Source: Hamadaea flava (GTDB taxonomy: Bacteria > Actinomycetota > Actinomycetes > Mycobacteriales > Micromonosporaceae). From it: a stretch of DNA of 64,000 nt. The position numbers were made by a program, and so were the translations under genes. The DNA is taken from positions 4,092,001-4,156,000 of the forward strand of contig NZ_JAMZDZ010000001.1 in NCBI RefSeq assembly GCF_024172085.1, given 5' to 3'. Positions 27,974-46,543 of this stretch are shown piece after piece; within the stretch, counting starts at the first letter, position 1, and every line of letters starts with the position of its first letter. The notes under the pieces are model-generated. The model saw nothing but the letters and a program-made list of their open reading frames with translations, searched no databases and was not told where the DNA came from.

Positions 27974-28002
27974 CCCCCGACCCTAGCGCAGAGTCGGGCC
28001 CG

Positions 28003-29312: not shown

Positions 29313-29369
29313 AAGATCAATGATGCCGGGCGGTTGTGACAGGATCAGTCAGGAACCGGACGCCGTCGG

Positions 29370-32300
29370 TTATCCGGCTTCCGGCAACCCGGCGATCAGC
29401 TCGATCAGCCCGGCCTCGTCCAGCAGGTCGACCGGGCGCACGGTCACCTTGTCCGCGACGTAGTAGAACGCCGCCCGCACCTTCGCCACCGGCACCCCAG
29501 CGAGCGAGGCCCAGGCCAGCCGATACGCGGCCAGCTGCACCGACGCGGCGGTGGCGGCCAGGCCGGCCGGGCGTCCCCCGGTCTTCCAGTCGACCACGTC
29601 GTAGGTGCCGTCCGGCTCGGCGAACACGGCGTCCATGCGGCCCCGGACCACCACTCCACCCAGGACCGTCGCGAACGGCACCTCGACCTCGGCCGGCGTA
29701 CGCTCGGCCCATTCGCCGGCGAGGAATGCCTCCTGCAGGGCGGCCAGCCGTTCGTCGTCGGCCGCGTCGGCGTCGGCCGACCCGGGCAGCTCGTCGACGT
29801 CGAGCAGCCGATCGGCCCCGAACCGTTGTTCCAGCCAGAGGTGGAAGGCGGTGCCGCGGCGGGCGTACGGGTTGGGCCGGTGCGGCAGCGGACGCCGGAG
29901 CGACCGGGCCAGGTCCCGCGGATCCCGGCGCAGCATGACGAGCTGCGACACCGACAGCTGCCGGGGCACGGGCACCTCGATGACGTTGCCCGTACGCCGT
30001 TGCAGCGCCCGCTCGGCGAGCAGCAGCTCGACCTCGTGTCCCCAGCGTTGCGCCTGTTCGTCGGCGAACCCGGACACCTTCCGCTCGGCCTGCCGCCCGA
30101 TCCGGGACAGCCCGTCCCCGGTGACGTCGAGGTAGGACCGGACGAGTTCGCCCGCCGCCGCGACCACCGGCCGACGTCGGCCCAGGGGATCCTGCGGCCA
30201 TTCGATCTCAGCCGTCGCGCCCAGCGCCGGGTTGGTCTCGTCGGGGCCGGGCGGCGGCGCCCAGACCTCCACGATCCCGTCACCTTGGCGGCACAGCTCG
30301 GCGACCTCCGCCAGGAACGGCGACGGTCCCCGAGGGCGTACGCCGTCGCCCCACCACGCGCCGCTGGCCAGCAACCAGCGCCGGGGGCGGGTCACCGCCA
30401 CGTACGCCAGCCGCCGTTCCTCTCGTTCGTCGTGCTCGCCCCATTCCGCCCGGAACTTCTCGACCGCGTCCCGGAGCGCCTTCTGGTCGGCGTCCGCGCC
30501 GGTCGGAACCGCGAGCGCGGGCAGACCGTCATGGTCGCCACGCAACGGGAACGGCAGTACGCCGAGCCCGTCGAGGTAGTGGTCGCTGTTCTTGGTCTTG
30601 CCCGGCCACACCCCCTGGGTCAGCCCGGCCACCGCGACGAGGTCCCATTCGAGCCCCTTGGCGGCGTGCGCGGTGAGGAGCTGGACGGCGCCCTCGACGA
30701 CCTCGACCTCGCCCGGGGCGAGCCCGCGTTCCTCCTCCTCGGCGGCGCGCAGGTAGGCCAGGAACGCCGACAGCGTCGCGCCCTCGGTCTCGGCGGCGAA
30801 CCGGGCCGCGACGTCGCCGAAGGCGTCCAGATGCGCCCGGCTCAGCGCCGACTCGCCCCCGCGCAGGAGGACTTCGACCTCCAGTCCGCTGGCCCGTTCG
30901 ATCTCCGAGATCAGGTCCGGCAGCGGCTGGTCGAGGTGCTGCCGCAGCTCGGCCAGCTCCTTGGCGTACCGGCGGAAACGGATGTAGCCGTGCGTCGAGT
31001 AGGCCGCCGGATCGCCGAGATCGTCGAGCGCCTCACTCAGCGCCGCCTCGTCGAGCCGGTCGGTCACGACGGGTTCGGGATCTCCCCGACGGTCGGCCGC
31101 GATCTTCCGGGAACGCCGGTGCAGCGCCACGAGATCCCGGGGACCGATCCGCCAGCGGGGTCCGGTCAGCATCCGCAGCAGCGACGCGCCGTCGGCCGGA
31201 TCGGCCAGTACGCGCAAAGTGCAGACCACATCGCGTACCTCGGGAGTGTCGAGCAGGCCGCCGAGGCCGACCACCTCGACGGGCAGTCCCCGGGCCCGCA
31301 GCGCCTGCTCGATCGGCTCGATCTGAGCGCGTACGCGGACGAGGACGGCCGTGGTCGGCGGCGGAGCCGTCACATTTGCCCGCTCCGCTTCGTCGGCCAC
31401 CTCCTGCCAGATCTCGTCGATCCGGCGCGCGATCCACTCCGCCTCGTCCTGGGTGGTCTGCGTGAGTGCACAGTGGACGAATCCGGTGCGCCCGTCGCCG
31501 CGCAGCGCGGTCACCCGGGCGCCCCGCTGCCGCAGGGGCTCGGAGACCGCGTTGGCGACGTGCAGGATCTGCTGCCGGTTACGGAACGAGCGGCTGAGCG
31601 CCATCGCGGTCGCCGGACCGCCCCCGGCCTGACGGAAATCGTCGGGGAACCGGTCCAGGGTGCCCGCGCTCGCCCCGCGCCAACCGTAAATGGATTGGCC
31701 GGGATCGCCGACCGCGGTCACGGGGTGGCCGCCGCCGAACAGCGAGCGCAGCAGCACCACCTGCGCGTGACTCGTGTCCTGGTACTCGTCCAGGAGCACC
31801 ACGGTGAACCGCTGCCGCTCGATCGCGCCGACCTCGGGATGGTCCCGTGCCACTCGCGCCGCCCTCGACAGCTGATCGCCGAAGTCCATCGCCTCCAACG
31901 CCGCTTTGCGTTGTGCGTACAAGCGGATCATGGGCATGAGCGCGAGGCGCGCCCGCTGGGTCGCGAGCAGAGCTTGGACCGGGGCGTAGACGCGGCCGGG
32001 CAGGCCGGTCAGCTCGGCCGAGAAACGGCCGGTCCACGCGGAAAGCTCGTCGGGGCCGACCAGATGTTCGGCCATCTCCGCGGCCAGGTCGAGGACGGCC
32101 TTGGTGACCGTCGACTTGGCCTTGTCCACCGCGGACATGTCGCCGTCGTACGCCGCGACCACCTCGTCCGCGAGCTGCCACGCGGCGGCCTGGGACAGCA
32201 GCCGCGCACTGGGCTCGAATCCGGCGCGCAGCCCGTGCTCGGCGACGATGCGCGCCGCGAACGAGTGGTAGGTCGAGATCGTGGGCTCCCCGGCGCCCCG

Positions 32301-32615
32301 GTGCGGACCGGGTTCGGGCATGCGCCGGCGCAGCTGCCCCAGCCGCAGCCGGACCCGATGGGCCAGCTCACCGGCGGCCTTGCGGGTGAAGGTGAGGCCG
32401 AGGATCTGCTCCGGCCGCACGTGCGAGTTGGCGACCAGCCACAGCACGCGCGCAGCCATGGTCTCGGTCTTGCCCGAGCCCGCGCCCGCCACCACGAGCA
32501 GTGGTGCGACCGGGGCCGAGATGACCCGGGCCTGCTCGTCGGTGGGCCGGGTGAGGCCGAGCCGGGTCGCCAGCTCGTGCGGGGTGAACCGGGGACCGGA
32601 GTCGAACAGGCTCAC
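29370..32615 (-). CDS. adnB: AdnB, helicase-nuclease subunit
   Basis: About 1081 residues. N-terminal SF1A helicase: RPTDEQARVISAPVAPLLVV, VVAGAGSGKTETMAARV (Walker A), VVLLDEYQDTSHAQVVLL (DExx), AVGDPGQSIYGWRGA and LLTAHAAKGLEWDLVAVAGL. A C-terminal RecB-family nuclease follows with GRMDAVFAEPDGTYDVVDWKTG, which contains the D..D-x-K residues. In mycobacteria AdnA and AdnB form the heterodimer that resects double-strand breaks. GTG at 32615 overlaps the adnA stop (GTGA), so the two are coupled. The length fits the mycobacterial protein (about 1100). Confidence 0.93.
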   Translation of the reverse strand: MSLFDSGPRFTPHELATRLGLTRPTDEQARVISAPVAPLLVVAGAGSGKTETMAARVLWLVANSHVRPEQILGLTFTRKAAGELAHRVRLRLGQLRRRMPEPGPHRGAGEPTISTYHSFAARIVAEHGLRAGFEPSARLLSQAAAWQLADEVVAAYDGDMSAVDKAKSTVTKAVLDLAAEMAEHLVGPDELSAWTGRFSAELTGLPGRVYAPVQALLATQRARLALMPMIRLYAQRKAALEAMDFGDQLSRAARVARDHPEVGAIERQRFTVVLLDEYQDTSHAQVVLLRSLFGGGHPVTAVGDPGQSIYGWRGASAGTLDRFPDDFRQAGGGPATAMALSRSFRNRQQILHVANAVSEPLRQRGARVTALRGDGRTGFVHCALTQTTQDEAEWIARRIDEIWQEVADEAERANVTAPPPTTAVLVRVRAQIEPIEQALRARGLPVEVVGLGGLLDTPEVRDVVCTLRVLADPADGASLLRMLTGPRWRIGPRDLVALHRRSRKIAADRRGDPEPVVTDRLDEAALSEALDDLGDPAAYSTHGYIRFRRYAKELAELRQHLDQPLPDLISEIERASGLEVEVLLRGGESALSRAHLDAFGDVAARFAAETEGATLSAFLAYLRAAEEEERGLAPGEVEVVEGAVQLLTAHAAKGLEWDLVAVAGLTQGVWPGKTKNSDHYLDGLGVLPFPLRGDHDGLPALAVPTGADADQKALRDAVEKFRAEWGEHDEREERRLAYVAVTRPRRWLLASGAWWGDGVRPRGPSPFLAEVAELCRQGDGIVEVWAPPPGPDETNPALGATAEIEWPQDPLGRRRPVVAAAGELVRSYLDVTGDGLSRIGRQAERKVSGFADEQAQRWGHEVELLLAERALQRRTGNVIEVPVPRQLSVSQLVMLRRDPRDLARSLRRPLPHRPNPYARRGTAFHLWLEQRFGADRLLDVDELPGSADADAADDERLAALQEAFLAGEWAERTPAEVEVPFATVLGGVVVRGRMDAVFAEPDGTYDVVDWKTGGRPAGLAATAASVQLAAYRLAWASLAGVPVAKVRAAFYYVADKVTVRPVDLLDEAGLIELIAGLPEAG

Positions 32616-35600
32616 GGCTCCACCACCTGCCGCCCCTTGCCGGAGACCGGGCAGCTCGGCCGGACCGGGCAGACCCGGCACTTGTCGTTGGCCTTCGCCA
32701 CGAAGGTCGACGCGGCCATGGTCGCGCCCGTCTTGCGGACCATCTCGGCGGCCCACTCCGGGTTCTCGACCACGCCGATCGCCTCCTGGATCTGCTCCCG
32801 GGCGTCGCGGCGCTCACCGCCGAGCTGCACCAGGGCCGCGCCGCCGGACTCGGCGCCCTCCTCGAACGCGCCCGCCTCCACCGCGACCTGGTACGCCCCC
32901 AGCTGCGGATGCTCCGGCAGCTCCTGCGCGGTGGCGACCGTGCTGGCCCCAGTCTTGAGGTCGATGACGACGAGCCGGCCCTGGTCGTCGACCTCCAGCC
33001 GGTCCACCCGGCCCTTGAGGTCGATCGGGCGGGCCTCGTCGTCGGTGACCCGGACGAGGAAGTCCCGTTCGATGGAGAGCAGCCGTCGCGGGTTGACCGC
33101 GATCCAGCGAACCAGTTTGTCGATCATCTGCTCGGCCTTGTGCTGCTCCCGGGGGGCGAGCCACTTGGCGGCCAGCTCGATGACGTCGAACCGCTCGTTG
33201 ACGTACTCCATCAGGGCGGCGCGGTCGACGCTCACGTCGTCGGCCAGCATCGCCGCCGCGTGCACGAGGTTGCCGACGCCCTGGGCGAAGCTGTCCGGCG
33301 CCTTGCCGCCGTGCCGTTCGAGCAGCCAACGCAGGCTGCATCGCAACGCGGACTCCATCGTGGACGGTGTGACCACGACGGGATCGCCGTCGTCGGCCAG
33401 CGGCCGGTCGTCCGACAACGGCGGCAGCCCCCACCACTGGTCGGGATCGGCCCCCGGTACGCCCGCCGCCGCCAGCCGGGCCAGCTGCACGGCGGCCGCC
33501 TCCCGCTTCCGAGGCGGCGTACGCGGACTGGTGATGGCGATCCGCAACTCGGCGACCAGGGCGGGCAACGTGAGCGCCCGTGGCGGCTTCTGGACGGGGA
33601 GGTCCTCGGCCTCCTCCGGCTCCCGGTCATCGGCCGCGGCGACGTCCTCGCCGGCCAGCTCATAGAGGAATCGGCTCGGGCGCTCCTCACCGCTGTCCCC
33701 GCCGACCGCTCCGGTGTCGACCGCAGTCACCAGCAGCCGCCGCCGCGCCCGCGTAATCGCGACGTGGAACAACCGCCGTTCCTCGTCGAGCAGCGCCGCC
33801 GACTGGGCGGTCACCACCTCCCGCTGGGTCTCTCCAGCCCGTTCGGCGAGGACGTCCACCAGTTGCTCGGAGCCGAGCAGACTGCCGCGTAGCCGCAGGT
33901 CCGGCCAGATGCCTTCCTGCACCCCGGCGACCACGACGACATCCCACTCGAGCCCTTTCGCGGCGTGCGCGGTGAGGAGGCGTACCGCCTCGCCCCGGTC
34001 GGCGTTGGGCGCGAGGCTGTCCGCCGGAAGCTGCTGACTCAGCACGTGTTCGAGGAACGTGTCGAGCTTCGCGCCCGGCAGCCGGTCGGTGAACCGGGCG
34101 GCCGCGTCGAACAGCACCACGACGGCGTCGAGATCCCGGTCGGCGCCCTCAGCCCGCCGTCGCTGATCCGGCCCACTCGCCGGGGTAGTGGCCAGCGCGG
34201 CCCAGCGCTCGGCCAAACCACTGGCCCGCCACACGTTCCAGAGCACGTCCTCGGCGGTCGCACCGGGGCGGGCCGCGGTCTCCCGGCCGGTCGCCAGCAG
34301 CTGCGCGATCCGGCTGGCCGGGGCGGCCCATCTCTTGTCGATCACGGCCAACTCGGTCGGATCACGAAGGGCGTCGACCAGCAGTTCCCCGCTCGGCCGG
34401 GGGTCGCCGGCGGCATGGGCCAAGGCGCGCAAACCTTGGCGCAGCTTGCGCTCCCCGAACGGGTCGGCCCCGCCCAACGGCGAATGCAGCAGCGCGACCG
34501 CCGTCTCCTCAGTCAAGTCCTCCGGCTTGAGCGCGCAGCGGAGCAAGGTGAGGAACGGGCGTACGGCAGGCTGCTCGTGCAGGGGCAGATCCTCGGCGAG
34601 CACCACCGTCGGCACCCCGGCCTGACGCAGCCCACGCTGGAGACTGACCAGCTGCACCGCGGTGGACCGCTGGATCACCGCCATCTTCGACCAGCTCACA
34701 CCGTCGACCAGATGGGCCTCGCGGAGCCGATGCGCGATGTACGCCGCCTCGCTCGCCACGCTGCGAAGGCTCACCACCTCCACCGCCCTCTCCTGCAGAT
34801 CACGGTTACGCAGGGGTCGGTGGCCGTTTTTAGGCTGCGGATCCGTGATCTGCCGCTCAACGACAGCGGCGGTAGGCGGGGAGACGGCAGGTATGACGCG
34901 GCGGTGGGACACGCCGACGCCGGCCGAGGCGCGAAGGCGTACGGAGATCCGGGCGGCTGCGCCGAGGAGCGCCTCCGGCGCCCGGTGATTCACCCCGAGC
35001 AGTTGCACCGGCGCGTCCGATCCGTCCACCCGGGGGAAGCTCGCTGGGAACCTGCCGACGAGGGCCGGATCGGATCCCCGGAAGGCGAAGGTCGACGAGT
35101 CGGGGTCGGCCAGGGCGACGACGGTCGCCCCGCCCCCGGCCACGAGTTCGAGCAGCTCGACCTGGGCGGGGTCGGTGTCGGCGTACTCGTCGACGTAGAC
35201 CGCCCGCAGCCGGCGTCGTTCAGCCGCCAACCGAGCGGGGTCATCACGCAACATCGCCGCCGCCGCCCGCACCAACTCGGCCGGGTCGTACGCCGCCGAA
35301 CTCCGGGTCGTCGTCTCCCGCAGTGCCAAGACCTGCTCGTACTCGCCGAGGAATTCGGCCGCCGCCAGCCAGTCGGCCCGGCCGTGGCGTACGCCGCGCT
35401 CGTGCAGCCCGTTCGGGCCGAGCCCGCGTTCCGCCGCCCGTTGCAGCAGGTCCCGAAGCTGTTCGGCGAAGGCCCGCGTACGCAGCGCGGGGCGTACGTC
35501 GTCGGGCCAGGCGACCTCGCCGTCCTCCAGCAGTTCCCGGATGACGAGGTCTTGTTCAGGCCCGGTGAGCAGCCGGGGTGCGGGCTCGCCTCGCGTCGCG

Positions 35601-35944
35601 GCCGCGGCCCGCAGCAGGCCGAAGGCGTAACCGTGGAAGGTCCGGACCATCGGTTCGCGGATGACGCGGCGCTCGGCGACGGCGCTGACCCGGGCTTCGA
35701 TCCGCCGGCGCAGCGACATGGCGGCCCGCCGCCCGAACGTCAGAATCAGTACGCCTTCCGGATCGTCGCCGTCGGCGATGCGCGTGGCGACCGATTCGAC
35801 GAGCACGGTGGTCTTCCCCGTCCCCGGACCGCCCAGGACGAGCAGCGGACCCTCCCGATGGGCGACCACGCGAGCCTGCGCCTCATCGAGCACGGGCGCG
35901 CCGGCGGTGGCGGCCGCGGGCCGCACCAGCCGAAACGTGCTCAT
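32612..35944 (-). CDS. adnA: AdnA, helicase-nuclease subunit carrying an inserted palindromic element
   Basis: About 1110 residues from the ATG at 35944. Helicase motifs include VLGGPGTGKTTVLVESV (Walker A, residues 36-46) and VYVDEYADTDPAQVELLEL. The C-terminal nuclease has GRVDRLEVDDQGRLVVIDLKTG, plus four iron-sulfur cysteines: one in ALRCSLRWLLERHGG and three in CRVCPVRPSCPV. Residues about 365-384 (QITDPQPKNGHRPLRNRDLQ) are encoded by a 59-bp palindromic repeat also found at 36043 and 43982. They fall in a linker between helicase subdomains. It is the first gene of the adnAB operon. Mycobacterial AdnA is about 1055 residues. Confidence 0.92.
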   Translation of the reverse strand: MSTFRLVRPAAATAGAPVLDEAQARVVAHREGPLLVLGGPGTGKTTVLVESVATRIADGDDPEGVLILTFGRRAAMSLRRRIEARVSAVAERRVIREPMVRTFHGYAFGLLRAAAATRGEPAPRLLTGPEQDLVIRELLEDGEVAWPDDVRPALRTRAFAEQLRDLLQRAAERGLGPNGLHERGVRHGRADWLAAAEFLGEYEQVLALRETTTRSSAAYDPAELVRAAAAMLRDDPARLAAERRRLRAVYVDEYADTDPAQVELLELVAGGGATVVALADPDSSTFAFRGSDPALVGRFPASFPRVDGSDAPVQLLGVNHRAPEALLGAAARISVRLRASAGVGVSHRRVIPAVSPPTAAVVERQITDPQPKNGHRPLRNRDLQERAVEVVSLRSVASEAAYIAHRLREAHLVDGVSWSKMAVIQRSTAVQLVSLQRGLRQAGVPTVVLAEDLPLHEQPAVRPFLTLLRCALKPEDLTEETAVALLHSPLGGADPFGERKLRQGLRALAHAAGDPRPSGELLVDALRDPTELAVIDKRWAAPASRIAQLLATGRETAARPGATAEDVLWNVWRASGLAERWAALATTPASGPDQRRRAEGADRDLDAVVVLFDAAARFTDRLPGAKLDTFLEHVLSQQLPADSLAPNADRGEAVRLLTAHAAKGLEWDVVVVAGVQEGIWPDLRLRGSLLGSEQLVDVLAERAGETQREVVTAQSAALLDEERRLFHVAITRARRRLLVTAVDTGAVGGDSGEERPSRFLYELAGEDVAAADDREPEEAEDLPVQKPPRALTLPALVAELRIAITSPRTPPRKREAAAVQLARLAAAGVPGADPDQWWGLPPLSDDRPLADDGDPVVVTPSTMESALRCSLRWLLERHGGKAPDSFAQGVGNLVHAAAMLADDVSVDRAALMEYVNERFDVIELAAKWLAPREQHKAEQMIDKLVRWIAVNPRRLLSIERDFLVRVTDDEARPIDLKGRVDRLEVDDQGRLVVIDLKTGASTVATAQELPEHPQLGAYQVAVEAGAFEEGAESGGAALVQLGGERRDAREQIQEAIGVVENPEWAAEMVRKTGATMAASTFVAKANDKCRVCPVRPSCPVSGKGRQVVEP
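34795..34853 (-). repeat. 59-bp palindromic element, copy P1 (inside adnA)
   Basis: GCAGATCACGG at 34795-34805 pairs exactly with CCGTGATCTGC at 34843-34853. A second inner pair is CGCAG/CTGCG. On the minus strand it matches P3 base for base at its ends: a first 12-base arm GCAGATCACGGA and a last 18-base arm TGCGTAACCGTGATCTGC. It is read in frame by adnA as QITD...RNRDL. Confidence 0.92.
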
Positions 35945-36042
35945 GGCTCGCCGGGTCACGGCTATATGCAACCACGGCGGTGCGACGCGCCGACGGACCC
36001 CGGCCCGCCGTCGCCGCCGCGCCCGGCATTCGGGGTCCTCAT

Positions 36043-36101
36043 GCAGATCACGGTCACGCATGCCTCAGCCAGCCAAGATCGCCTGCGTAACCCTGATCCG
36101 C
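36043..36101 (+). repeat. 59-bp palindromic element, copy P2 (upstream of adnA)
   Basis: It starts GCAGATCACGG and ends TGCGTAACCCTGATCCGC, two changes from P1/P3, with the same 59-bp length and a different middle. It is about 100 bp upstream of the adnA start in the 353-bp gap 35945-36297. That gap holds no convincing gene. It also contains the exact inverted repeat CCGATCGGCCC (36162-36172) / GGGCCGATCGG (36189-36199), possibly a terminator for the DUF3152 gene on the minus strand. Confidence 0.85.
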
Positions 36102-36297
36102 AGCGAAAAGGCCGCCCCGACAAGGCGGGCGAAAGGGGCAAAGGAGGAATCGCGCAAAAGCCCGATCGGCCCAGGCATGGCGGAGACCGGGCCGATCGGA
36201 CCTATGACATCCAATAGCACTCCGGAATCGGTTACAAGACCTTCAGGCCAACTGATTCCGTCGTCGCAGGAAGAATCCGTTGAACCCGCCCGTGTCG

Positions 36298-37020
36298 TCA
36301 GCGCGACTGCGGGTACGGCCAGGCGTTCGGGACGCACCCGTCCAGGCCGTAGTACTGCGGCATCATCGCTGGCGCCGGTCGGCCCCGGCCGGGACAGCCC
36401 GCGTGCCCGAACCCGAGAAAGTGGCCGACCTCATGGTTGACCACGAGGTGCTGATAGTCCCGGAGACGGCCGGCGTACGGGGGGATCGCAAGCAACCAGC
36501 GGCGCAGGTTGATCACCACATTGCCGCCGGCTCGGCAGGAGACCTCGCCGCTCGTCTGGATGCCGGCCGCGCCGCAGATCTTGTCGACCGTCGCGGGCGT
36601 CGCCAGCTTCACCACGAAATGGTGCGGCTCGCCCGGCCCGACCCGCCGGAAACCCCAGCGGCCGCGGGCGGTCCAGCTCCGCGGATCGGCTAACGTCGCC
36701 TCGACCGCGGTCGCGAAATCGGCGGCGGCCAGCCCCGCACCGGTCTCGACCGCGACCTGGTAGGCGTGCACGAGGCCACGGCCCACCACCGGACCGTCGC
36801 CCGGCGCGATCACGAACTTCCCGGTCCCGCTCTTCGGCCCACCCGAGGTCTGGCGGGCCGCCACGGTCACCACCGGCGCCGCGGCAGACCGGCTCTTCTC
36901 CACCACGGGTACGCCAGACGCACTTTCCGGATTCCGGGCGCGGCCGGCGGCGTACCCGAGGAATGCGAGAAGGACCAGCGCGAACAGGGCGAGAGCCAGC
37001 GCGCGGGACTTGTCAGTCAC
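36298..37020 (-). CDS. Secreted DUF3152 metalloprotease-like protein
   Basis: 240 residues. An N-terminal hydrophobic segment (ALALALFALVLLAFLGYAAG, about residues 6-25) is a signal anchor without an obvious cleavage site. The rest is DUF3152, with the zincin motif NHEVGHFLGFGHAGCPG, which has the full HExxHxxGxxH of metzincins, followed by a met-turn-like PAMMPQYY. Two cysteine pairs probably form disulfides. Proteolytic activity is likely from the motif but untested for the family as far as I know. The start is GTG at 37020, overlapping the small gene upstream by eight bases. Confidence 0.88.
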   Translation of the reverse strand: MTDKSRALALALFALVLLAFLGYAAGRARNPESASGVPVVEKSRSAAAPVVTVAARQTSGGPKSGTGKFVIAPGDGPVVGRGLVHAYQVAVETGAGLAAADFATAVEATLADPRSWTARGRWGFRRVGPGEPHHFVVKLATPATVDKICGAAGIQTSGEVSCRAGGNVVINLRRWLLAIPPYAGRLRDYQHLVVNHEVGHFLGFGHAGCPGRGRPAPAMMPQYYGLDGCVPNAWPYPQSR

Positions 37021-37141
37021 GCGGCTCGGGCTCGGCGGGGGTTTCGACCGGCACGGCCGGGATGCGACGCTGCGCGACGACGACGCGGATGCGCTGCCGC
37101 ATGGCCGCGCGCCGCTTCAGCATTTCGGTCCGGCTCAGCAC
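37013..37141 (-). CDS. 42-residue basic peptide upstream of DUF3152
   Basis: GTG at 37141 with GGAGGGG six bases upstream, and the stop overlaps the DUF3152 start by eight bases, so the two are likely translationally coupled. The product starts MLSRTEMLKRRAAMRQRIR, a basic amphipathic helix, and ends in an acidic PVETPAEPEPRD tail. No family is recognised. It could simply feed ribosomes to the next gene. The 112-bp divergent gap to the LOG gene contains an AAAGCGG/CCGCTTT inverted repeat. Confidence 0.5.
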   Translation of the reverse strand: MLSRTEMLKRRAAMRQRIRVVVAQRRIPAVPVETPAEPEPRD

Positions 37142-37253
37142 TCTCGTCCCCTCCACCGCCAGGCTGTACCCATTTAAAGCGGTCGGCAACCGCTTTTGGT
37201 TGCCCGACGCGCCGGATGCGGTTAGCTGACACTTAGCGGGATAAGTTCTTGAG

Positions 37254-37988
37254 ATGAGCAACCGAGAACGCCACTCCGGAGCAGTGACCCTCCGCGGCTC
37301 GGTGACCCGGTCGAGCACCGCTGACCAGGCGTTGCTCGACTCGCGCGGCCGGCCCGACTGGAAGACCAAGGACGCGTGGCGGACGCTGCGCATCCTCAGC
37401 GAATTCGTCGAAGGCTTCGAGACGATGGCGGACCTGCCCCCGTCGGTCAGCGTCTTCGGATCCGCGCGCAGCGCAGAGAACAGCGCCGAATGCCGACTGG
37501 GCTACGAACTGGGCGGCGCACTCGCCCGCGCCGGTTATGCAGTCATCACCGGGGGCGGGCCCGGCGTGATGGAAGCGGCGAACAAAGGCGTCGCCGAAGC
37601 CGGCGGCCTGTCCGTCGGCCTCGGCATCGAGCTGCCGTTCGAGCAGGGCCTCAACGACTGGGTCGAACTGGGCATCGACTTCCGCTACTTCTTCGTGCGC
37701 AAGACCATGTTCGTGAAGTACGCCCAAGGCTTCGTCGTCCTCCCCGGCGGATACGGCACGATGGACGAACTGTTCGAGGCGCTCACCCTGGTCCAGACCC
37801 GGAAGGTGACACAGTTCCCGGTCGTGCTGATGGGGACGTCGTACTGGGGCGGTCTGATCGACTGGCTGCGTACGACGATGCTCGGCGAGGGGAAGATCAG
37901 CAAGGAGGACCTCGACCTCATGATGCTGACGGACGACGTCGACGAGGCCGTCAACCACATCGTGAACACCAGCGAAACCGCCCCCTAG
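37254..37988 (+). CDS. LOG-family (TIGR00730) Rossmann-fold protein
   Basis: 244 residues. The lysine-decarboxylase-like/LOG motifs are intact: ITGGGPGVMEAANKG and, further on, VVLPGGYGTMDELFEALTL (PGGxGTxxE). LOG enzymes cleave nucleoside 5'-monophosphates, releasing the base from ribose 5-phosphate; the plant-hormone role is one case. The N-terminal 60 residues (RGSVTRSSTADQALLDSRG) are the extension common in actinobacterial homologues. It is followed 41 bp later by copy C of the 57-bp repeat. Confidence 0.9.
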   Translation: MSNRERHSGAVTLRGSVTRSSTADQALLDSRGRPDWKTKDAWRTLRILSEFVEGFETMADLPPSVSVFGSARSAENSAECRLGYELGGALARAGYAVITGGGPGVMEAANKGVAEAGGLSVGLGIELPFEQGLNDWVELGIDFRYFFVRKTMFVKYAQGFVVLPGGYGTMDELFEALTLVQTRKVTQFPVVLMGTSYWGGLIDWLRTTMLGEGKISKEDLDLMMLTDDVDEAVNHIVNTSETAP

Positions 37989-38029
37989 CCCGACTCCCTC
38001 TCCCCCACGCCCCCCGTTGTTTTCCGCGT

Positions 38030-38086
38030 GATCATGAACTAACGGTCGTGATCGACCGGTGTGTCGTGTCCCTGCGACCCTGATCG
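38030..38086 (+). repeat. 57-bp intergenic repeat, copy C
   Basis: It starts GATCATGAACT, continues with AAC, then GGTCGTGATCGACC and GGTGTGTCGTGTCC, and ends with TGATC. It is almost identical to copy B at 39700-39756 in inverted orientation, so the pair flanks the DUF4407 gene. It lies 41 bp past the stop of the LOG gene in that gene's direction. Confidence 0.92.
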
Positions 38087-38103
38087 TTCCCACGCCGCCC
38101 TGA

Positions 38104-39597
38104 TCAACGGCGGGTGCCGTCGAGGCGGTCGGCGGCTGCGCTCAGCCGGTCGCCGAGGAATGCCTTGTGCTCCAGCACTTCGAGGTCGATCTCGGCTCGG
38201 CGTTTGCGCAGCACGGCGGCCCGTTCGTCCATCTCGTGGGCCAGATCGTGCTCGAAGGTGGCTTCGGCGTACCGGAGTCGCTGGTCGACGAGGCGGTCGT
38301 AGGTCGTGGTGCCGCCGACGTACTTCACGAGGATCGGCATGCAGTCCACCAAGATGAAGAACAGGCGTACCGCCCAGATCCCCAAGGCCAGCGTGATGTT
38401 CAGCCCCGCCAGCTCGTGCAGCGCACCCAGCCGTTCCAGCAGACCGATCGGACCCTGGTGGCTGCGGGCCTGCTCCACTCGCGCCGCGATCTGCCGACCG
38501 CGCTCCTGCTCGAACGCCGCCTGATTCTGCTGGGCCGCACCTTCTAATGTGGAGATCTGCTGGCCGAGTACGCCGAGCCGGGCGGTGTTCGCCGCGATGC
38601 GGTGCGTCTTGGCGTACTCGTCGGCTTCGCCGCGCAGCCGGTGGCAGTTCGGCCCCTCGCCGACCCGGCCGGTGAGCCCGGCGCCCCTCGTCCCGTTGCA
38701 CTCCCGGCGGGCCAGCTCGTTCAGCTCGGCGTACCGCTTGGCGTCGGCGGTCACCTGCGCCTTGAGCTCGGCCGCGTCCGCGCGTACGGCCGCGAGCTGC
38801 TGGGTCGTGGCGACCGGGGTCTGGCCGAACGAGAGCACGTCGGTCGAAGTGCATCCGGCGGGCGGCGGAGCGTCCGGCGCGGTGGGCGCCGGGTTGCACT
38901 TCTTGAGCCGCCCGGCGAGGTCGGCGAGTTGTGCGGCTCGCTCGTCCCGGATGTGCTGTTCGACGGCCGTCTGGAAGACCCGCAGCACCAGCGGCTCGGC
39001 GATGATGATGCCGAACAGGACCGCCATGCCGATCCGCATGAACAGCACCGGCAGACGTTTGCGGCCCTCGCCGCCGATCCGGCTGGAGACCAGCCAGCGG
39101 TCGACGCTGAGGATGAAGAAGAACCACACCAGGACCGGGATGACGGCCCAGCCGCTGGTGACCCCGACCGCCTGGGTGATCGCGAACCACATCGAGAACG
39201 CGGCGATCGTCGCCGTCCCCAGCACGACGCCGCCGAGCGAGGTGTACCAGGCTCGCTCCTGCGGGGCGTACGCCAGCAGCTTCTCGTCCACTCCGGCCAG
39301 TGCACGCAGGCGCCGGCCCAGGTTGAGCGGCGGCGGCACCGGTACGCGACGCTTCGGCCGCTCCCGGGTCTCCGCGCGTTCCGGCTTCGCCTGCTGCCCT
39401 TGGGTCTCTGAGGCCGCCGACTTCTGGGTCTCTGAGGCTTCCGGCTTCTGGGTCTCTGAGGCTTCCGGCTTCTGGGTCTCTGAGGCTTCCGGCTTCTGGG
39501 TCTCTGAGGCCGCCGACTTCTGGGTCTCTGAGGCTTCCGGCTTCGCCGGGACCTCCACAGTTTCCGGTTCCTCGCCGCGTTCCGCGTTCTCCCCCAT
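38104..39597 (-). CDS. DUF4407 membrane protein with repeat-bearing N terminus
   Basis: About 497 residues. The cytoplasmic N terminus has six 8-residue repeats ending in ASETQK (residues about 18-65), then a basic linker. The DUF4407 core has membrane segments AWYTSLGGVVLGTATIAAF, the following WAVIPVLVWFFFILSVDRWL, and MAVLFGIIIAEPLVLRVF. A long Cys/Ala/Gln-rich coiled region and a last segment (LALGIWAVRLFFILVDCMPILVKY) precede a charged C-terminal helix. Function unknown. ATG at 39597 is chosen for its GAGGGGGAA site; a GTG/ATG at 39633 would add 12 residues. Confidence 0.85.
   Translation of the reverse strand: MGENAERGEEPETVEVPAKPEASETQKSAASETQKPEASETQKPEASETQKPEASETQKSAASETQGQQAKPERAETRERPKRRVPVPPPLNLGRRLRALAGVDEKLLAYAPQERAWYTSLGGVVLGTATIAAFSMWFAITQAVGVTSGWAVIPVLVWFFFILSVDRWLVSSRIGGEGRKRLPVLFMRIGMAVLFGIIIAEPLVLRVFQTAVEQHIRDERAAQLADLAGRLKKCNPAPTAPDAPPPAGCTSTDVLSFGQTPVATTQQLAAVRADAAELKAQVTADAKRYAELNELARRECNGTRGAGLTGRVGEGPNCHRLRGEADEYAKTHRIAANTARLGVLGQQISTLEGAAQQNQAAFEQERGRQIAARVEQARSHQGPIGLLERLGALHELAGLNITLALGIWAVRLFFILVDCMPILVKYVGGTTTYDRLVDQRLRYAEATFEHDLAHEMDERAAVLRKRRAEIDLEVLEHKAFLGDRLSAAADRLDGTRR
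39401..39544. repeat. Six 24-bp tandem repeats in the DUF4407 gene
   Basis: Copies of TGGGTCTCTGAGG(C/G) begin at 39401, 39425, 39449, 39473, 39497 and 39521. Each 24-bp unit encodes eight residues, (PE/SA)ASETQK, so copy-number change keeps the frame. The three central copies are identical. Confidence 0.95.
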
Positions 39598-39699
39598 CGT
39601 TCCCCCTCGTCCGGCGGCCGCAGCGGGCCGCACCGGAGAAGACGCTCAACGACGGTCGATTGGTTGGCGCGACCGTTGTCGATCATCGACCTGCGGGAG

Positions 39700-39756
39700 T
39701 GATCAGGGCCGGGGGGACACGACACACCGGTCGATCACGACCGTTAGTTCATGATC
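39700..39756 (-). repeat. 57-bp intergenic repeat, copy B
   Basis: On the minus strand it reads GATCATGAACTAAC, GGTCGTGATCGACC, GGTGTGTCGTGTCC and then ends TGATCA. It lies 24 bp past the dapE stop in dapE's direction and upstream of the DUF4407 start. The match with copy C extends a few bases beyond (TTTCCGCGT). Confidence 0.92.
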
Positions 39757-39780
39757 ACGCGGAAAACACGGGGCTGGGGG

Positions 39781-40866
39781 TTAGCGGGAGAGCCAGGTGC
39801 GGAGGGTGGTGGCGGATTCGACGATCTTCACGATCTCGACGTGTTCGTCCACCTTGTGGGCGAGGTTCGGGTCGCCCGGCCCGAAGTTCAGCGCCGGTAC
39901 GCCCAGCGCGGAGAACCGGGCCACGTCGGTCCAGCCGAGTTTGGCGGCGGGTGTGGTGCCGGTCGCGGCGATGAACGCGGCCGCGGGCGGCAGGGTGAGG
40001 CCGGGCAGGGCGCCGGGGGCGGAGTCGGTCAGCTTCACGTCGAAGCCGTGGAAGACGTCGACCAGGTGTTCCAGGGCCTCGTTGACTGACCGCGACGGGG
40101 CGAACCGGTAGTTGACCTCGATCTCACAGCGGTCGGGGACGACGTTGCCGGCCACGCCGCCGGTGATGGCGACCGCGTTGAGGCCCTCCCGATAGAGGCA
40201 CCCGTCGATTTCGACTTCCCGCGCCCGGTACGCGGACAGCCGCGCGAGGATCTCCCCGGCGGCGTGGATGGCGTTGACGCCGAGCCACGACCGGGCCGAG
40301 TGCGCGCGCTTGCCTTCGGAGCTGACGATCACACGCATGGTGCCCTGGCAGCCTGCCTCGACGACGCCGTAGGTGGGTTCCAGCAGGATCGCGAAGTCGG
40401 CGGCCAGCAGCTCCGGGCGTTGCTGCGAGAGGATGAACAGGCCGTTCCGGACGGCTTCGACCTCTTCGGCCTCGTAGAAGAGGTAGGTGACGTCGAACTT
40501 CGGCTCGGTGACGGTGATCGCCAGATGCAGGGCGATGGCTGTGCCGCTCTTCATGTCCGAGGTCCCGCAGCCCCACATCAGCTCGACGCCCTCGGCGGTC
40601 ATGGACGGGTGCGACGGGAAGTTGCCCGCGATCGGCACGGTGTCGAGGTGTCCGGCCAGCACCACCCGCGACGACCGGCCCAGCTGCGTACGCGCGACGA
40701 CGGTGTGGCCGACCCGCTCCACGGTCAGGTGGGCGCACGTACGGAGGGCTGCCTCGACCGCGTCGGCGATCTCCTTCTCGTTCCCCGAGACGGACTCGAT
40801 GTCGACCAGCGCGCGGGTCAACGCCACGGGGTCGGCGAGCACCTCTGAAGTAAGAACGTCAGCCAT
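39781..40866 (-). CDS. dapE: Succinyl-diaminopimelate desuccinylase
   Basis: 361 residues, M20 metallopeptidase fold. Zinc ligands and catalytic residues are visible: LAGHLDTVP (His and Asp), [11 protein letters not shown] (bridging Asp), [10 protein letters not shown] (catalytic Glu and Glu ligand) and, near the end, [15 protein letters not shown] (His ligand). It removes succinate from N-succinyl-LL-DAP in lysine/meso-DAP synthesis. ATG at 40866 is likely leaderless from the shared promoter with dapD, which diverges 14 bp away. dapC of the same pathway is about 8 kb downstream. Confidence 0.95.
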
Positions 40867-40872
40867 GACCGG

Positions 40873-40879
40873 TAGCCTA
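40873..40879. promoter_or_regulatory. Symmetric -10 element shared by dapE and dapD
   Basis: TAGCCTA contains TAGCCT on the plus strand and TAGGCT on the minus strand, each fitting TANNNT. On the minus strand it is seven bases before the dapE ATG (40866). On the plus strand it is two bases before GTG 40881 and eight before GTG 40887. Both genes could be transcribed leaderless from this one site. Confidence 0.6.
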
Positions 40880-40880
40880 G

Positions 40881-41813
40881 GTGACCGTGAGCAGACTCGA
40901 TGACGCAGCTTGGGGTCATGGCCTGGCCACCGTCACCGCCGACGGGCAGGTTCTCGACGTGTGGTACCCGGCCGGGCAGTTGGGCCTCGGCGCGCCCGGC
41001 CCGAAGCCGGCCTACGCCACCGACGTCCAGAAGCCGCTGGATCTGAAGGTCGTGCAGGTGGAGACGGTCGTCGGCAGCCTGGCCGAGTCGCCGGCCGACA
41101 CCGCCGACGCGTACTTGCGGCTGCACCTGCTCTCGCATCGGATCGTCAAGCCGCACCAGGCCAACCTCGACGGGATCTTCGGCGCGCTGGCCAACATCGC
41201 CTGGACGAGCCTCGGCCCGTGCCCGGTGGACCGGGTCGACGAGCTGCGCTTCGAGGTCCGGGCGGCCGGCGGGCACCTGGCGGTCTACGGGGTCGACAAG
41301 TTCCCCCGGATGACCGACTACGTGGTGCCGAGCGGGGTCCGCATCGCCGACGCCGACCGTGTCCGCCTCGGCGCCCACCTGGCCGAGGGCACCACGGTGA
41401 TGCACGAGGGATTCGTGAACTTCAACGCCGGGACGCTCGGGACCAGCATGGTCGAGGGCCGGATCGTCGCCGGCGTGGTCGTGGGCGACGGTTCCGACAT
41501 CGGCGCGGGCTCGTCGATCATGGGCACGCTGTCCGGGGGCGGTAAGGAGATCATCTCCATCGGCAAGCGCTGCCTGCTCGGCGCGAACGGCGGCATCGGC
41601 ATCTCGCTCGGCGACGACTGCGTGGTCGAGGCCGGCTGCTACATCACCGCCGGCTCGAAGATCACCCTGCCGGACGGCCGGGTCGTCAAGGCCCGCGACC
41701 TGTCCGGCTCCAGCGGCATCCGCTACTGGCGCAACTCGGTCACCGGCGCGCTGGAGGCCACGCCGCGCGAAGGCCACGGCATCACCCTCAACTCGGCGCT
41801 CCACAGCAATTAG
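40881..41813 (+). CDS. dapD: Tetrahydrodipicolinate N-succinyltransferase
   Basis: 310 residues. The C-terminal left-handed beta-helix is visible as hexapeptide turns ([43 protein letters not shown]). The middle contains [32 protein letters not shown], typical of the actinobacterial DapD branch. The enzyme uses succinyl-CoA to open tetrahydrodipicolinate in the DAP pathway. GTG at 40881 or 40887 is the start; the latter gives a leaderless transcript from TAGCCT. It shares a bidirectional promoter with dapE. The RecB-like gene abuts it with no gap. Confidence 0.94.
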
Positions 41814-44084
41814 GTGGTCGACTCCCTCACCCCACGAGGGGTGGCCGGCTTGCTGGCCACCCCCGGGTGTGAGCGCCGCTCACGGCTCGTCGCCACCGGC
41901 GTCGACCTCGACTCGCTCGCCGTCTCGCTCGGCGGCGAGGAGGTCGGTCAATCGCCGTTCGCCCTCGCCCGGTCCGCGCAATTCGAGGCCCGTCTCAAGA
42001 GCCAGGGATACGCCGAACTCCGCGACCTGATTCAGCGACATCTCGGCATCGAGGTGGCCGGCGCAGTGGCCTCCGATCTGGCGAGCTGTCTCGCCGACCG
42101 GACGCCCCGGCTGCACATCCTGGGGCCGCAGCGACTCGGCTGGCCCGGTGGCGGCCTGGAGACCGACGGCCTGCTCGTGGTCTCCGGGGAGACGCTGCAC
42201 CTCGTCGGCGTACGCACCTATGCGATGGTCGGCGAGGTCGCCGATCCGGCCAAGGTCGCCGCCACGTCGCGGGAGCTGGCGGTCGAGATCGTGGCGCTGC
42301 GTTCCCAACTCCCAGAAGTGGGGCGCTGCTCTACGCGTACCCTCCTGGTGCTGCCGAAGAACTTCGGGCTGAGCCCGACCGCCGCCGTGCTCGACGTGGC
42401 GCCCCAGGTGGCCCGCGTGCGGGCGTTGTCGACGGGTCTGGAGTGGGGCGGCGAAGCGCCGGAGTGGAGCGAGCTGCGCCCGAAGTTCGGCGACGGCTGC
42501 CCGCAGTGCCCGATGATGGGGGCGTGCGCCGGGGAACTGGTCGAGCAACGGCGAGTGGCGCGTCTCGGCAGCGCGGTGGCGAACGTCGTCGGCGGCACGG
42601 TGGACGAGGCGCTGCTCGACCCGCCGCCGGATCTCGGTGTGCGGCAACGGTTGCAGGCCATGCGCGACGGCCGCTCGGTACGCCGCACCACCCGCCGCCA
42701 CGTCCATCTGCACGACAGACCGCTGGTCGTGGTGGGCTATCACCTGGCCGGCGAGCCCGCTGCGGTGCTGGCGCTCCACTATGGGACATCACCCGAGGAC
42801 GGCAAGCTCCTCGTCGCCGCCGAGCCCCGGGACCGTGAGCAGCGGCTGGCCCTCCTGCGGGAGTTCGCCGCCGATCTGAGTTCCTATGTGGAGGAATTTG
42901 CGGCGGTCGAGCCGATCGTCCGGCGGGACATGACGGTCGTGGAGTGCGCAGTCGACGCGCCGCAGCTGATCACGCCCAACAGCGCGACCGCGCAGTGGCT
43001 GACCGACCTGCTCGCCCGCTACCTGCGCGGCTCCGAGGACCTCGCGGCCCAGCATCTGAGCTGGTTCGGGTCGCGGCGCGTACTGCCCGGGTCGTCGGTG
43101 ACGACCGCCATGACGGATGTGCTGACGACGCACTGGGCGACCGGCCAGCTGCCCGCCGAGGATGTTCACCTGCCGTCGCTGCTGTCCTGGCTCGGGGAGA
43201 CGGTCGACGATGTGCCGATGGGGCCGATCCCCGACCCGCACTGGGACTCGGGCGTACTCGCGCCGGCGCTCGGCGCGCCCGGCCTGGTCACCGCGGCCGT
43301 CTCCGGCCCGTTGGCGACGGCGTGGTCCGCGACGTGGCGTTCGCTGGGACTCGTCCGGGCGGAGCTGCCCGAGATCGGCGCGCACGTCGGTGACCGGTGG
43401 GAACGCGATCGCTGGTCCTTCACCCGGCACCGGGAGCGCGTCGCCGAGGGGACGGCTTCGGTCGCCGCCCGGCTGTCCGGCGTACCGGCGTTCCGGTTCC
43501 TGCATGAGCTGGAGACCCGCACGGTCGCCCTCGAACGGCAGATGGCGCTCGACGATCCGCTGGTCATGACGGGCTACCTGATCAGCGGGGACGCCCTGAG
43601 CGGCACGGTGTCCAAGGTGGACCGGGAGCACACGCTCGCCTCGCCGACCGGGCGCGAGCTGCTGCGTCCGCGCATCTGGCTGCACAGCGACGCGGAGTTC
43701 GGCCGCCCGCTCGGGACGCAACTCTGGCTCGCCACCGATCCCCGCGTGATGGTGACGGTGACCGCTGTCGAACCGGGCGGCGTCGAGCTGCTCGTCCAGA
43801 AGGGCGCGGTGCAGCGCAACGCCCTCGGGCGGCTGCCCCAGATCGGCGAGGAGGTCGTGTTCGCGCCGTTCGGCGGAGAGGACGCGTTTCCGAGCCGGCT
43901 GCCCGAACAGCTCCCCTGGCAGTTCGGCACCGCCTCCCCCGACCCCGCCGACGCTCCCGCCGACCCCGCCGCCGATGAGCAGCAGATCACGGATGTGCAG
44001 GCTACGACGGCCCAGGTTCGCATGCGTAACCGTGATCTGCCGCCTACGCCCGGGACGGCGGAAGGCGGTGGCGCGAGTGAGTGA
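41814..44084 (+). CDS. RecB/Cas4-like iron-sulfur nuclease-type protein, active site degenerate
   Basis: 756 residues. A cysteine near residue 19 (PGCERRSRL) and three in CPQCPMMGAC (about 228-237) match the four-cysteine iron-sulfur cradle of Cas4/AddB/Dna2-type nucleases. The nuclease core between them has GGLETDGLLVVSGETLHLVGVRTY, where the usual D..(E-x-K) gives Gly-Val-Arg, so catalysis is doubtful. A long C-terminal region follows. Residues about 723-742 (QQITDVQ...RMRNRDL) come from the 59-bp element P3. It starts with GTG directly after dapD and overlaps the SF1 helicase gene. Product length and pairing suggest a split Dna2-like complex. Confidence 0.7.
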   Translation: MVDSLTPRGVAGLLATPGCERRSRLVATGVDLDSLAVSLGGEEVGQSPFALARSAQFEARLKSQGYAELRDLIQRHLGIEVAGAVASDLASCLADRTPRLHILGPQRLGWPGGGLETDGLLVVSGETLHLVGVRTYAMVGEVADPAKVAATSRELAVEIVALRSQLPEVGRCSTRTLLVLPKNFGLSPTAAVLDVAPQVARVRALSTGLEWGGEAPEWSELRPKFGDGCPQCPMMGACAGELVEQRRVARLGSAVANVVGGTVDEALLDPPPDLGVRQRLQAMRDGRSVRRTTRRHVHLHDRPLVVVGYHLAGEPAAVLALHYGTSPEDGKLLVAAEPRDREQRLALLREFAADLSSYVEEFAAVEPIVRRDMTVVECAVDAPQLITPNSATAQWLTDLLARYLRGSEDLAAQHLSWFGSRRVLPGSSVTTAMTDVLTTHWATGQLPAEDVHLPSLLSWLGETVDDVPMGPIPDPHWDSGVLAPALGAPGLVTAAVSGPLATAWSATWRSLGLVRAELPEIGAHVGDRWERDRWSFTRHRERVAEGTASVAARLSGVPAFRFLHELETRTVALERQMALDDPLVMTGYLISGDALSGTVSKVDREHTLASPTGRELLRPRIWLHSDAEFGRPLGTQLWLATDPRVMVTVTAVEPGGVELLVQKGAVQRNALGRLPQIGEEVVFAPFGGEDAFPSRLPEQLPWQFGTASPDPADAPADPAADEQQITDVQATTAQVRMRNRDLPPTPGTAEGGGASE
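43982..44040 (+). repeat. 59-bp palindromic element, copy P3 (inside the RecB-like gene)
   Basis: GCAGATCACGG (43982-43992) is complementary to CCGTGATCTGC (44030-44040). It aligns with P1 read on the minus strand: the first 12 and last 18 bases are identical and the middle differs. It is translated in the same frame as P1, giving QITD at the left end and RNRDL at the right. Confidence 0.92.
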
Positions 44085-45366
44085 GGCGCGGGCGGCGCAC
44101 GAGGGGGCGGTCGACGAGATCTGGCGGCTGCTCACCTCCGGCGAGCGGACGGTCGTCGTGGACTCCCCGCCCGGCGCGGGGAAGTCCACCCTGGTCCGGG
44201 AACTGACCCGGCGGCTTCTGGCGGACGGCGTACGTGTGCCGGTGGTGGTGCAGACCAACGACCAGGCGGACGACCTCGTCGGCGGGCTGGTCCGCGAGCT
44301 GGCCGAGGCCGGGCTGCCCGCCGAGGTGGGCCGGTTGCATGCCAGCGGCTGGGAACCGCCGACCGGATTCCCCCGCCGGGGCGTACGCACCAGCGCCAAG
44401 CTCGCCGAGCTGGCCGGCTGCCCGATCGTCGTCGCGACCGCCGCGAAATGGGCGTTCAGCCCGGGTGAGACGTTCGAGCTGGGGATCATCGACGAGGCGT
44501 ACCAGATGTCGGCGGCAGCGCTGGTCCGCGTGGGCGACCTGTTCGACCGCCTGCTGCTGGTCGGCGACCCCGGTCAGCTCTCCCCGTTCACCGTCGCCGA
44601 CGAGCACACCGTGCGGTCGCTGTCGGCCTGGCCGCTGTCCACCGCCGCCGGGGTCGTGCTCCGCCATCACCCCGGTACGCCGATCGTCCCGTTGCCGGTG
44701 AGCTGGCGGTTGGCTCCGCACACCGCGCCGGTGGTGTCCGACGCCTTCTACGTCCGGCCGTTCCGCGCCGGGGTGGATCCGGGCGTACGCCGTCTCGAAG
44801 TCCCGGCCTCGGCGCATCCTGCCGTGCGGAGCGCTGCCGAACACGGCTGGGGACTGCTGGAACTGCCTTCGGCGTACCAGCCGAGAACTGATCCGGAGAT
44901 GGTGGCCCACCTGGTCGAGCTGGCCCGCGGTCTGTGCGCCGGGGCGGCCGTGACCGCCGACGAGCGGCGCACACGGGGGCTGAAATCGCGCGACATCGCG
45001 ATCGGGGTGGCGCACACCGACCAGCGCGACCATGTCCGCGCGGCCTTGGACCGGGCGGCGTTGCCGCAGGTCACCGTGGACACCGCCAATCGGCTGCAGG
45101 GCCGCCAGTTCGAGATCACGCTGGTCTGGCATCCGCTGTCCGGCCGCCGCGACGCGACCGCCTTCCATCTGGAGACCGGGCGGCTGTGTGTGCTCGCCTC
45201 CCGGCATCGCCAGGCCTGCATCGTGGTGACGCGCGCCGGGATCGCGTCCCAGCTGCACGAGTTTCCCGCCGCCGAGCCGGTTTGGCTGGGGTCGGACCCG
45301 CCGCCGATCGACGGCTGGGCGGCCAATCTGTCGTTCCTCGACCATCTGGAGAAGTTCCGAGCTTGA
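44077..45366 (+). CDS. SF1 (Upf1/Dna2-like) helicase
   Basis: About 429 residues. Motif I is VVDSPPGAGKSTLV (about residues 23-35), motif II GIIDEAYQMS, motif III LLLVGDPGQLSPF, an arginine motif VSWRLAPHTAPVV, and near the end DTANRLQGRQFEITLVWHP with LCVLASRHRQACIVVTRAG as motifs V-VI. The pattern is SF1B, closer to Upf1/Dna2 than to UvrD. GTG at 44077 overlaps the preceding RecB-like gene by eight bases (GTG at 44068 possible), implying coupled synthesis. A defence or fork-processing role is plausible; nothing in the sequence decides. Confidence 0.8.
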   Translation: MSEARAAHEGAVDEIWRLLTSGERTVVVDSPPGAGKSTLVRELTRRLLADGVRVPVVVQTNDQADDLVGGLVRELAEAGLPAEVGRLHASGWEPPTGFPRRGVRTSAKLAELAGCPIVVATAAKWAFSPGETFELGIIDEAYQMSAAALVRVGDLFDRLLLVGDPGQLSPFTVADEHTVRSLSAWPLSTAAGVVLRHHPGTPIVPLPVSWRLAPHTAPVVSDAFYVRPFRAGVDPGVRRLEVPASAHPAVRSAAEHGWGLLELPSAYQPRTDPEMVAHLVELARGLCAGAAVTADERRTRGLKSRDIAIGVAHTDQRDHVRAALDRAALPQVTVDTANRLQGRQFEITLVWHPLSGRRDATAFHLETGRLCVLASRHRQACIVVTRAGIASQLHEFPAAEPVWLGSDPPPIDGWAANLSFLDHLEKFRA

Positions 45367-45400
45367 CCTTGAGCGCGCTCTAGCTCGTAGCGTCGCCCTC

Positions 45401-46396: not shown

Positions 46397-46406
46397 GTTC
46401 CCGCTC

Positions 46407-46435
46407 GGAGCGGCCGCTGGGCGAGCGGCCGCTCC
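46407..46435 (+). terminator. Hairpin after the aldo/keto reductase gene
   Basis: GGAGCGGCCGCT (46407-46418) and AGCGGCCGCTCC (46424-46435) form a perfect 12-bp stem with a 5-nt loop, ten bases past the stop. There is no T tract. Confidence 0.75.
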
Positions 46436-46543
46436 GGAGTGGCCCTTCACAGGGCGCAGACCCTGGTCTAGCGGCATATAGACGGTTGCGATACCGTACA
46501 GCCTCACCGTCCAGATCGGCCGGAACACGGGGAGGCCGTCCCA

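Follow-up and report, generated by a model that had tools for sequence, protein, structure and literature searches.

A dispersed family of 59-bp palindromic elements in Hamadaea, found mostly at gene ends and occasionally in frame within proteins

The window analyzed here is a stretch of 64 kb (C1:4092001-4156000) from the complete Hamadaea genome G000 (8,864,410 bases, one contig). It contains a minus-strand gene at 32612..35944 that we take to be adnA, the name given in the first-pass annotation of this DNA. Its product joins a UvrD-type helicase to a PD-(D/E)XK nuclease (PF00580, PF13361, PF12705), and its closest solved chains are 7sjr_A and 6ppj_A (UvrD/REP-type helicase). A plus-strand gene at 41814..44084 had been labeled RecB-like, a label for which we found no Pfam or NCBIfam match. 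Three element copies of exactly 59 bp had been reported at this locus, and we verified their coordinates and lengths. P1 (34795..34853) lies inside adnA and is read on the minus strand in frame 2 as residues QITDPQPKNGHRPLRNRDL. P2 (36043..36101) is intergenic, as described, between adnA and the upstream gene and ~100 nt before the adnA ATG. P3 (43982..44040) is read on the plus strand in frame 2 as residues QITDVQATTAQVRMRNRDL in the C-terminal tail of the RecB-like gene product. All three are of a subtype that we call A. Their ends had been described as conserved, which is accurate for P1 and P3; P2 ends in CCTGATCCGC, not in CGTGATCTGC. A fourth copy, P4 (16278..16336; G000:4108278), was absent from the earlier list and differs in subtype from the other three, being B-type with arms CTGGATCAGGG...CCCTGATCCAG; it is intergenic and, by eye, directly follows a plus-strand stop codon. 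Predicted RNA folds of P1, P2 and P3 have energies of -26.7, -20.0 and -28.0 kcal/mol, and an Rfam scan of window positions 28000-48000 gave no match at the 59-bp elements.

Other repeats share the window. Positions 13-552 hold tandem copies of a 47-bp unit in which GGCACGACACG is abundant, and 24-bp repeats at 39377-39568 encode an octapeptide (SETQKPEA type) in the gene at 38104-39633. A second dispersed repeat of ~90-120 bp (TGATCAGGG..GGACACGACACGCCGGTCGATCACGACCGTTAGTTCATGATCGCGCGGAAAG) lies at 7188-7308 (+), 39670-39790 (+) and 38013-38113 (-), with about 30 places in the 3.6-4.65 Mb portion of G000 and some in G002. In 38/47 classed G000 copies the right-hand gene runs towards this repeat, that is, the repeat stands behind its 3′ end. 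Two of its copies fell in the Rfam-scanned stretch without a match, and it has GATCA words in common with the 59-bp family.

Four Hamadaea genomes were compared: G000, the drafts G001 (87% complete) and G002, which we take to be Hamadaea sp. Bin8.36 and Bin2.24, and G003, taken as H. tsunoensis. The sequence around the element is identical at G001 locus L200 and G002 locus L187, and one contig may be common to both metagenome drafts. Relatives of AdnA occur in Hamadaea sp. Bin8.36 (95%), Hamadaea sp. Bin2.24 (89%) and H. tsunoensis (75%). The P1 residues fall in a stretch unaligned to the helicase of 7sjr_A and 6ppj_A, and they are absent from the aligned AdnAs of H. tsunoensis and the outgroups, which have gaps or unrelated residues across this poorly conserved region. 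At the DNA level the P1 site is empty in H. tsunoensis and holds a B-type 59-bp element in place of A in G002, while the G001 adnA contigs break at this site. The orthologous place of P2 carries an A-type element in G001 (center 74% identical) and in G002 (center 35%), and is without an element in H. tsunoensis. P3 is likewise missing from the G002 and G003 orthologues, both of which stop at the corresponding GAGTGA; no orthologue of its host gene was found in the G001 draft. For P4, the orthologous places in G002 and G003 hold no element.

Scans beyond the window recovered many further copies. Across the whole of G000, the pattern GCAGATCACGGNNNNGCA (at most 2 mismatches) gave 335 forward and 370 reverse matches, counts in which a single copy can match on both strands, compared with 49 and 56 for a backwards control. 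A position-weight scan of 1.68 Mb of G000 returned 98 copies at a score of at least 14 and 0 in the reversed sequence. A half-arm scan accepting total lengths of 57-61 only found 123 copies in 1,677,427 bases of G000 (59 bp in 115, 58 bp in 6 and 60 bp in 2). The same scan found 20 copies over 534 kb of G002 and 10 over 240 kb of G003, and 0 in the reversed-sequence controls of all three. The first 30 loci, and some of the stretches, were picked for a copy already listed in them. The 3.6-4.65 Mb block runs unbroken around the window; its 57 copies (54 per Mb) give, by rough extrapolation, a G000 total near 480. The three window palindromes are thus members of a dispersed family with hundreds of copies in Hamadaea, a genus of soil bacteria. 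Half-arms lacking a regular partner (score at least 17) numbered only 6 across about 2.5 Mb of G000, G002 and G003, which makes the two-arm pair the copied unit. Among these 6, the sole long form is at G000:4558530-4558625, where B-type arms flank a lengthened center (~96 bp in all).

The family falls into subtypes, called by the best half-arm score. Type A reads GCAGATCACGGTTACGCATGC and type B CTGGATCAGGGTTCTCGGTCGAATCTTGG, each arm being followed by a center and then by its near-complement; type C, from G003, reads TTGGATCAGGGAAATCACCCGAATCTTGG with ~12 further conserved bases on either side. With the C profile included, arm pairs in the loci collected, some of which overlap or were fetched for holding a copy, were AA 109, BA 4 and BB 39 in G000, AA 15 and BB 10 in G001, AA 28, BB 30 and mixed 2 in G002, and CC 18 in G003. 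A pattern for the center, CGAATCWTGGNCCWWGATTCG (at most 2 mismatches), matched in the forward direction 90 times in G000, 182 in G001, 145 in G002 and 239 in G003; of the 117 other genomes searched from the bacterial family, two (G017 and G072) had a single site each. An A-type model, R1, searched with at most 36 candidates scored per genome and so informative on presence rather than copy number, matched G000, G001, G002 and, weakly, G055, with none in the other 146/150 genomes; the G055 match looks by eye like ordinary sequence. Further matches outside the genus number one each in G134, G161 and G164. Around base 1501 of L188 (G161) and L189 (G164), in another genus, single-copy GGTCACGGATGTGGGTCGAATCATGG and a near match to it lie in similar surroundings; these B-arm-like stretches may be chance resemblances. 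As far as searched, the 59-bp family is restricted to the genus Hamadaea, with the superfamily in all four genomes.

Palindromy is kept by covariation of the arms. Over 63 A-type rows and 27 pairs, 82.5% of cells were paired, compared with 25.9-37.8% when the arms were slid, and doubly changed cells numbered 125 against 79.5 ± 8.4 in shuffled rows. One near-perfect copy has a predicted RNA fold of -53.8 kcal/mol. We also considered whether the palindrome continues beyond 59 bp; flank pairing in types A and B was at the shuffled level, and longer conserved ends occur in type C only. Insertion into terminator loops was rejected as a general rule, long outer stems being present at few sites only (12, 13 and 16 pairs at 1433468, 7012607 and 7012843).

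Copies are strongly biased in their position relative to genes. Using a simple codon-usage caller built for this analysis, which called 88% of the G000 stretches coding, we found 8/123 G000 copies overlapping called genes by at least 40 nt, with ~108 expected by length, and the in-gene share was 2/20 in G002 and 1/10 in G003; the idea of a mainly coding element is not supported by these counts. Convergent gaps held 41 G000 copies against 18.0 expected by length (p = 2 × 10−7) and divergent gaps 9 against 34.3 (p = 2 × 10−8). In tandem gaps, 58 of 65 copies were closer to the 3′ end (p = 4 × 10−11; median 21 nt), so that the hairpins stand close behind stop codons, as intrinsic terminators do. 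Four called genes take their stop codon from the element they end in (3239278, 3313595, 4513913 and 4571709).

Position and predicted RNA folding suggest a terminator role, and a reading in which that role is the whole explanation deserves to be weighed: the elements would be immobile host transcription terminators or mRNA 3′-end stems that selection favors at gene ends, with a DNA- or RNA-binding protein keeping them alike. The 3′-end and convergent-gap bias agrees with this, as do the covarying arms and a symmetric hairpin that would work on both strands; moreover, seven picked in-gene copies have a mean of 19.6/29 pairs compared with 22.4 in 108 others (p = 0.013). However, copies within AdnA, CydC, CydD and an adenylation-like protein cannot terminate, some sites carry an element in one species but not in another, and hundreds of long, similar copies in one genus, with single core-pattern sites in 2/117 other genomes of the bacterial family, make convergence unlikely. 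We consider it unlikely that terminator function alone accounts for the family.

Comparison of sites between species revealed both inheritance and turnover. One G000 block was compared with its syntenic G002 contig, C30, chosen for holding adnA. The block contains 10 copies in G000 and 12 in G002; 8/10 G000 sites are also occupied in G002, and four further G002 copies are without a paired G000 copy. With 14/123 gene ends near an element in C30, the probability of sharing 8/10 sites by chance is 1 × 10−6. A rate of site sharing can be drawn from contiguous contigs only, short-locus pairs having been fetched for their copies. Copies may therefore be old rather than active, most block sites being common to G000 and G002. 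Subtype was the same at four of the eight shared sites (4040826, 4046407, 4128043 and 4156391) and different at the other four (4070941, 4075076, 4081383 and 4126795), among which 4070941 is the least exact site match, with much diverged surroundings. On G002 contigs C106 and C119, three G000 sites could be compared: cydD has the same subtype, cydC a different one, and 3823836 no detected element; two C106 copies have no counterpart in G000. Over 36 site pairs, most found because both hold a copy, subtype differs in 11. In the cydC linker the subtype is A in G000 and G001, B in G002 and C in G003; at cydD, both G000 and G002 carry an A-type copy and G003 lacks one. Between G000 and G003, 8/9 compared sites are empty in G003.

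Sequence identity between paired copies adds a further form of change. At site 1399804, the G000 and G001 copies are 76% identical as placed and 97% (57/59) once one copy is reversed; an identity of 57 or more occurred once in 5,696 A-A comparisons, at this site alone, which indicates that the orthologous copy is inverted between the two genomes. The G002 sites 3885349 and 4128043 lean towards inversion, though not beyond chance. Same-subtype pairs that are clearly inherited include 4046407 (97%), 3288104 (92%) and 4246090 in G001 (90%), and other such pairs are no more alike than random ones. The subtype changes could each reflect independent insertion at favored places, loss followed by re-insertion, or hairpin-to-hairpin copying via the shared GATCA-GG core, and the cydC series could arise by parallel insertion into a permissive linker. 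As a tentative possibility, sites may be standing docking places in which whole 59-bp hairpins are exchanged and flipped, so that the site is inherited and the subtype often is not, even in cydC, whose in-frame hairpin in each of the four species is of a subtype that recurs elsewhere in that genome.

No mover came to light in the searches made. The RAYT domain PF01797 (Y1 transposase) was matched in 0/4 Hamadaea genomes, the complete G000 among them, and in 5/14 control genomes, and RAYT as driver was set aside on this result. Likewise, the exact 20-base A-arm pattern, a single pattern, had 0 matches in viral contigs, and one A-type 59-mer had 0 matches among plasmids, speaking against phage and plasmid carriers. 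An autonomous relative with the same ends was not seen in about 2.5 Mb. We regard it as quite improbable that the element is a classical MITE, a relative of an insertion sequence that has lost its interior, is mobilized by that sequence's transposase and leaves target duplications. Such an origin fits its small size, inverted repeats, lack of a gene of its own and many copies, yet the 6 solo half-arms in about 2.5 Mb include no arm pair at kilobase spacing, and the filled and empty sites compared show no readable target duplication. Neither clean empty sites nor target duplications, both of which the first-pass annotation had proposed to look for, were found at the sites compared, and the printed filled/empty pairs differ by tens of flanking bases.

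Copies read in frame form a small but varied set. In G000 they lie in adnA (4126795), the P3 host gene (4135982), cydD (4244393), cydC (4246090), a subtilase gene (4481123), an MFS protein gene (4605405) and a permease gene (906797) whose FtsX match is below the Pfam cut-off; 4542478 is perhaps an N-terminal coding copy, the gene start being uncertain. G002 has coding copies in adnA, cydC, cydD and one histidine kinase-like gene (by eye), and G001 and G003 each have one in cydC. The names CydC and CydD rest on NCBIfam matches above cut-off. A further G000 gene, adenylation-like by eye (L253:1105-2802), carries a B-type element in frame, with four tandem VDPVS units ahead of it, and some element flanks elsewhere hold short tandem duplications of arm-like or neighboring sequence; together these suggest slippage beside the hairpin. 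In-frame insertion into unrelated proteins, as originally proposed, is thus borne out by AdnA, CydC, CydD, the adenylation-like protein and the subtilase, and in the three cases compared (AdnA, the P3 gene and CydD in G003) the insert is absent from homologues. The hint that RecB-family or helicase hosts are special is not upheld: the link is coincidental, since other in-gene hosts include CydC, CydD, a subtilase, and MFS, FtsX-like permease and adenylation-like proteins.

The element's sequence constrains how it can be read. Among 286 readings taken from 143 copies, frame 1 was open once, frame 2 in 265 and frame 3 in 242. Ten copies score well for coding on both flanks (cut at a downstream score above 20, with three of the genes counted in several species), and of these nine are in frame 2 and one is in frame 3. 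The recognizable peptides are QIT..RNRDL for A and GRI[LM]..DST..PDP for B. P1 and P3 do share a phase, codons starting at element position 2 in both; because frame 1 is nearly always closed, this is one choice of two and no sign of special function, and their shared orientation, also remarked on earlier, means little because the element is nearly symmetric. As 59 is not a multiple of three, in-frame insertion must gain or lose other bases too. We judge it very unlikely that protein-coding DNA is the main niche of a selfish element like the Rickettsia palindromic elements (RPEs). In-frame copies with a recognizable peptide, and occupation of the same CydC linker in four species, speak for such a niche, but called genes hold far fewer copies than their length predicts (8/123 against about 108), and the frames used are those the arms leave open. 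The coding copies look like a side effect of the hairpin family. That the in-gene stretches are ordinary ancestral coding sequence resembling the repeat by chance, a view with nothing in its favor beyond poor conservation of the host stretches, is refuted by AdnA homologues without the residues, by 123 copies in 1.68 Mb of a family hundreds strong to which the DNA matches, and by different subtypes at the same place between species.

We favor, with a probability of about 0.62, a REPIN-like, non-autonomous short interspersed hairpin that occasionally becomes protein-coding as RPEs do. Dispersal, unit length and lineage-specific sites point to mobility. Two inverted arms with a variable center and a nearly fixed total of 59 bp would have dispersed in one piece to hundreds of Hamadaea sites, the copied form perhaps being a folded single strand moved by some enzyme or during replication. 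Copies would persist mostly at gene 3′ ends, where the hairpin may do no harm or may serve as a terminator or as an mRNA 3′ cap. In-gene copies would survive where frame 2 (or 3) of the arm is free of stops, the insertion changes the length by a multiple of three overall and the host segment is a linker or tail. An occupied site would often be kept, with the hairpin there replaceable by another subtype or flipped.

The Hamadaea family places protein-coding palindromes in a high-GC actinobacterium, for which searches of an open-access library showed no report; none of five actinobacterial names looked for appears in PMC3733652. The CydC, CydD and AdnA copies offer a direct handle on protein tolerance of repeat insertion, and the cydC linker, with different subtypes across four species, is a natural test of hairpin spread and replacement without RAYT.

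Among known systems, REPIN/REP-RAYT elements of Pseudomonas and others are described as two inverted conserved ends at a fixed distance with a variable spacer, extragenic and with a predicted hairpin (PMC3116915). The Hamadaea element shares the inverted ends at fixed distance, the variable center, a mostly extragenic location, the predicted hairpin and the lack of its own gene; it differs from that description in the absence of PF01797 from four genomes, the strong 3′-end bias and the in-frame coding copies. The REPIN tag GTAG/CGTC is absent from the subtype consensus sequences, the only sequences inspected for it (by eye), which end in GCAG, CTGG and TTGG. RPEs are about 105-150 bp (PMC2229807, PMC10969869), and nearly half of those in R. 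conorii are reported to lie in ORFs (PMC10969869). Compared with them, the Hamadaea element is likewise palindromic, genus-restricted as searched and in frame in unrelated conserved proteins with a recognizable peptide, but it is 59 bp with near-constant length, has a small in-gene share, a 3′-end location and another sequence, and belongs to an actinobacterium. The RPE resemblance noted in the first-pass annotation therefore holds for dispersed palindromes that are sometimes in frame, and fails for a mainly coding habit, element size and in-ORF share. ERIC and the Yersinia palindromic MITEs, at 127 and 168 bp and with target duplications listed for both (PMC2229807), are likewise short interspersed palindromes, intergenic with occasional in-frame fusions. 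They are longer than the Hamadaea element and have target duplications, none of which we found. Fungal and algal mitochondria also harbor mobile GC-rich hairpins, which are short, spread by an unexplained process and sometimes lie in genes; these differ in residing in organelle genomes and in their sequences. The 59-bp family is real and best filed among the short interspersed palindromes, and its turnover is the surprise.
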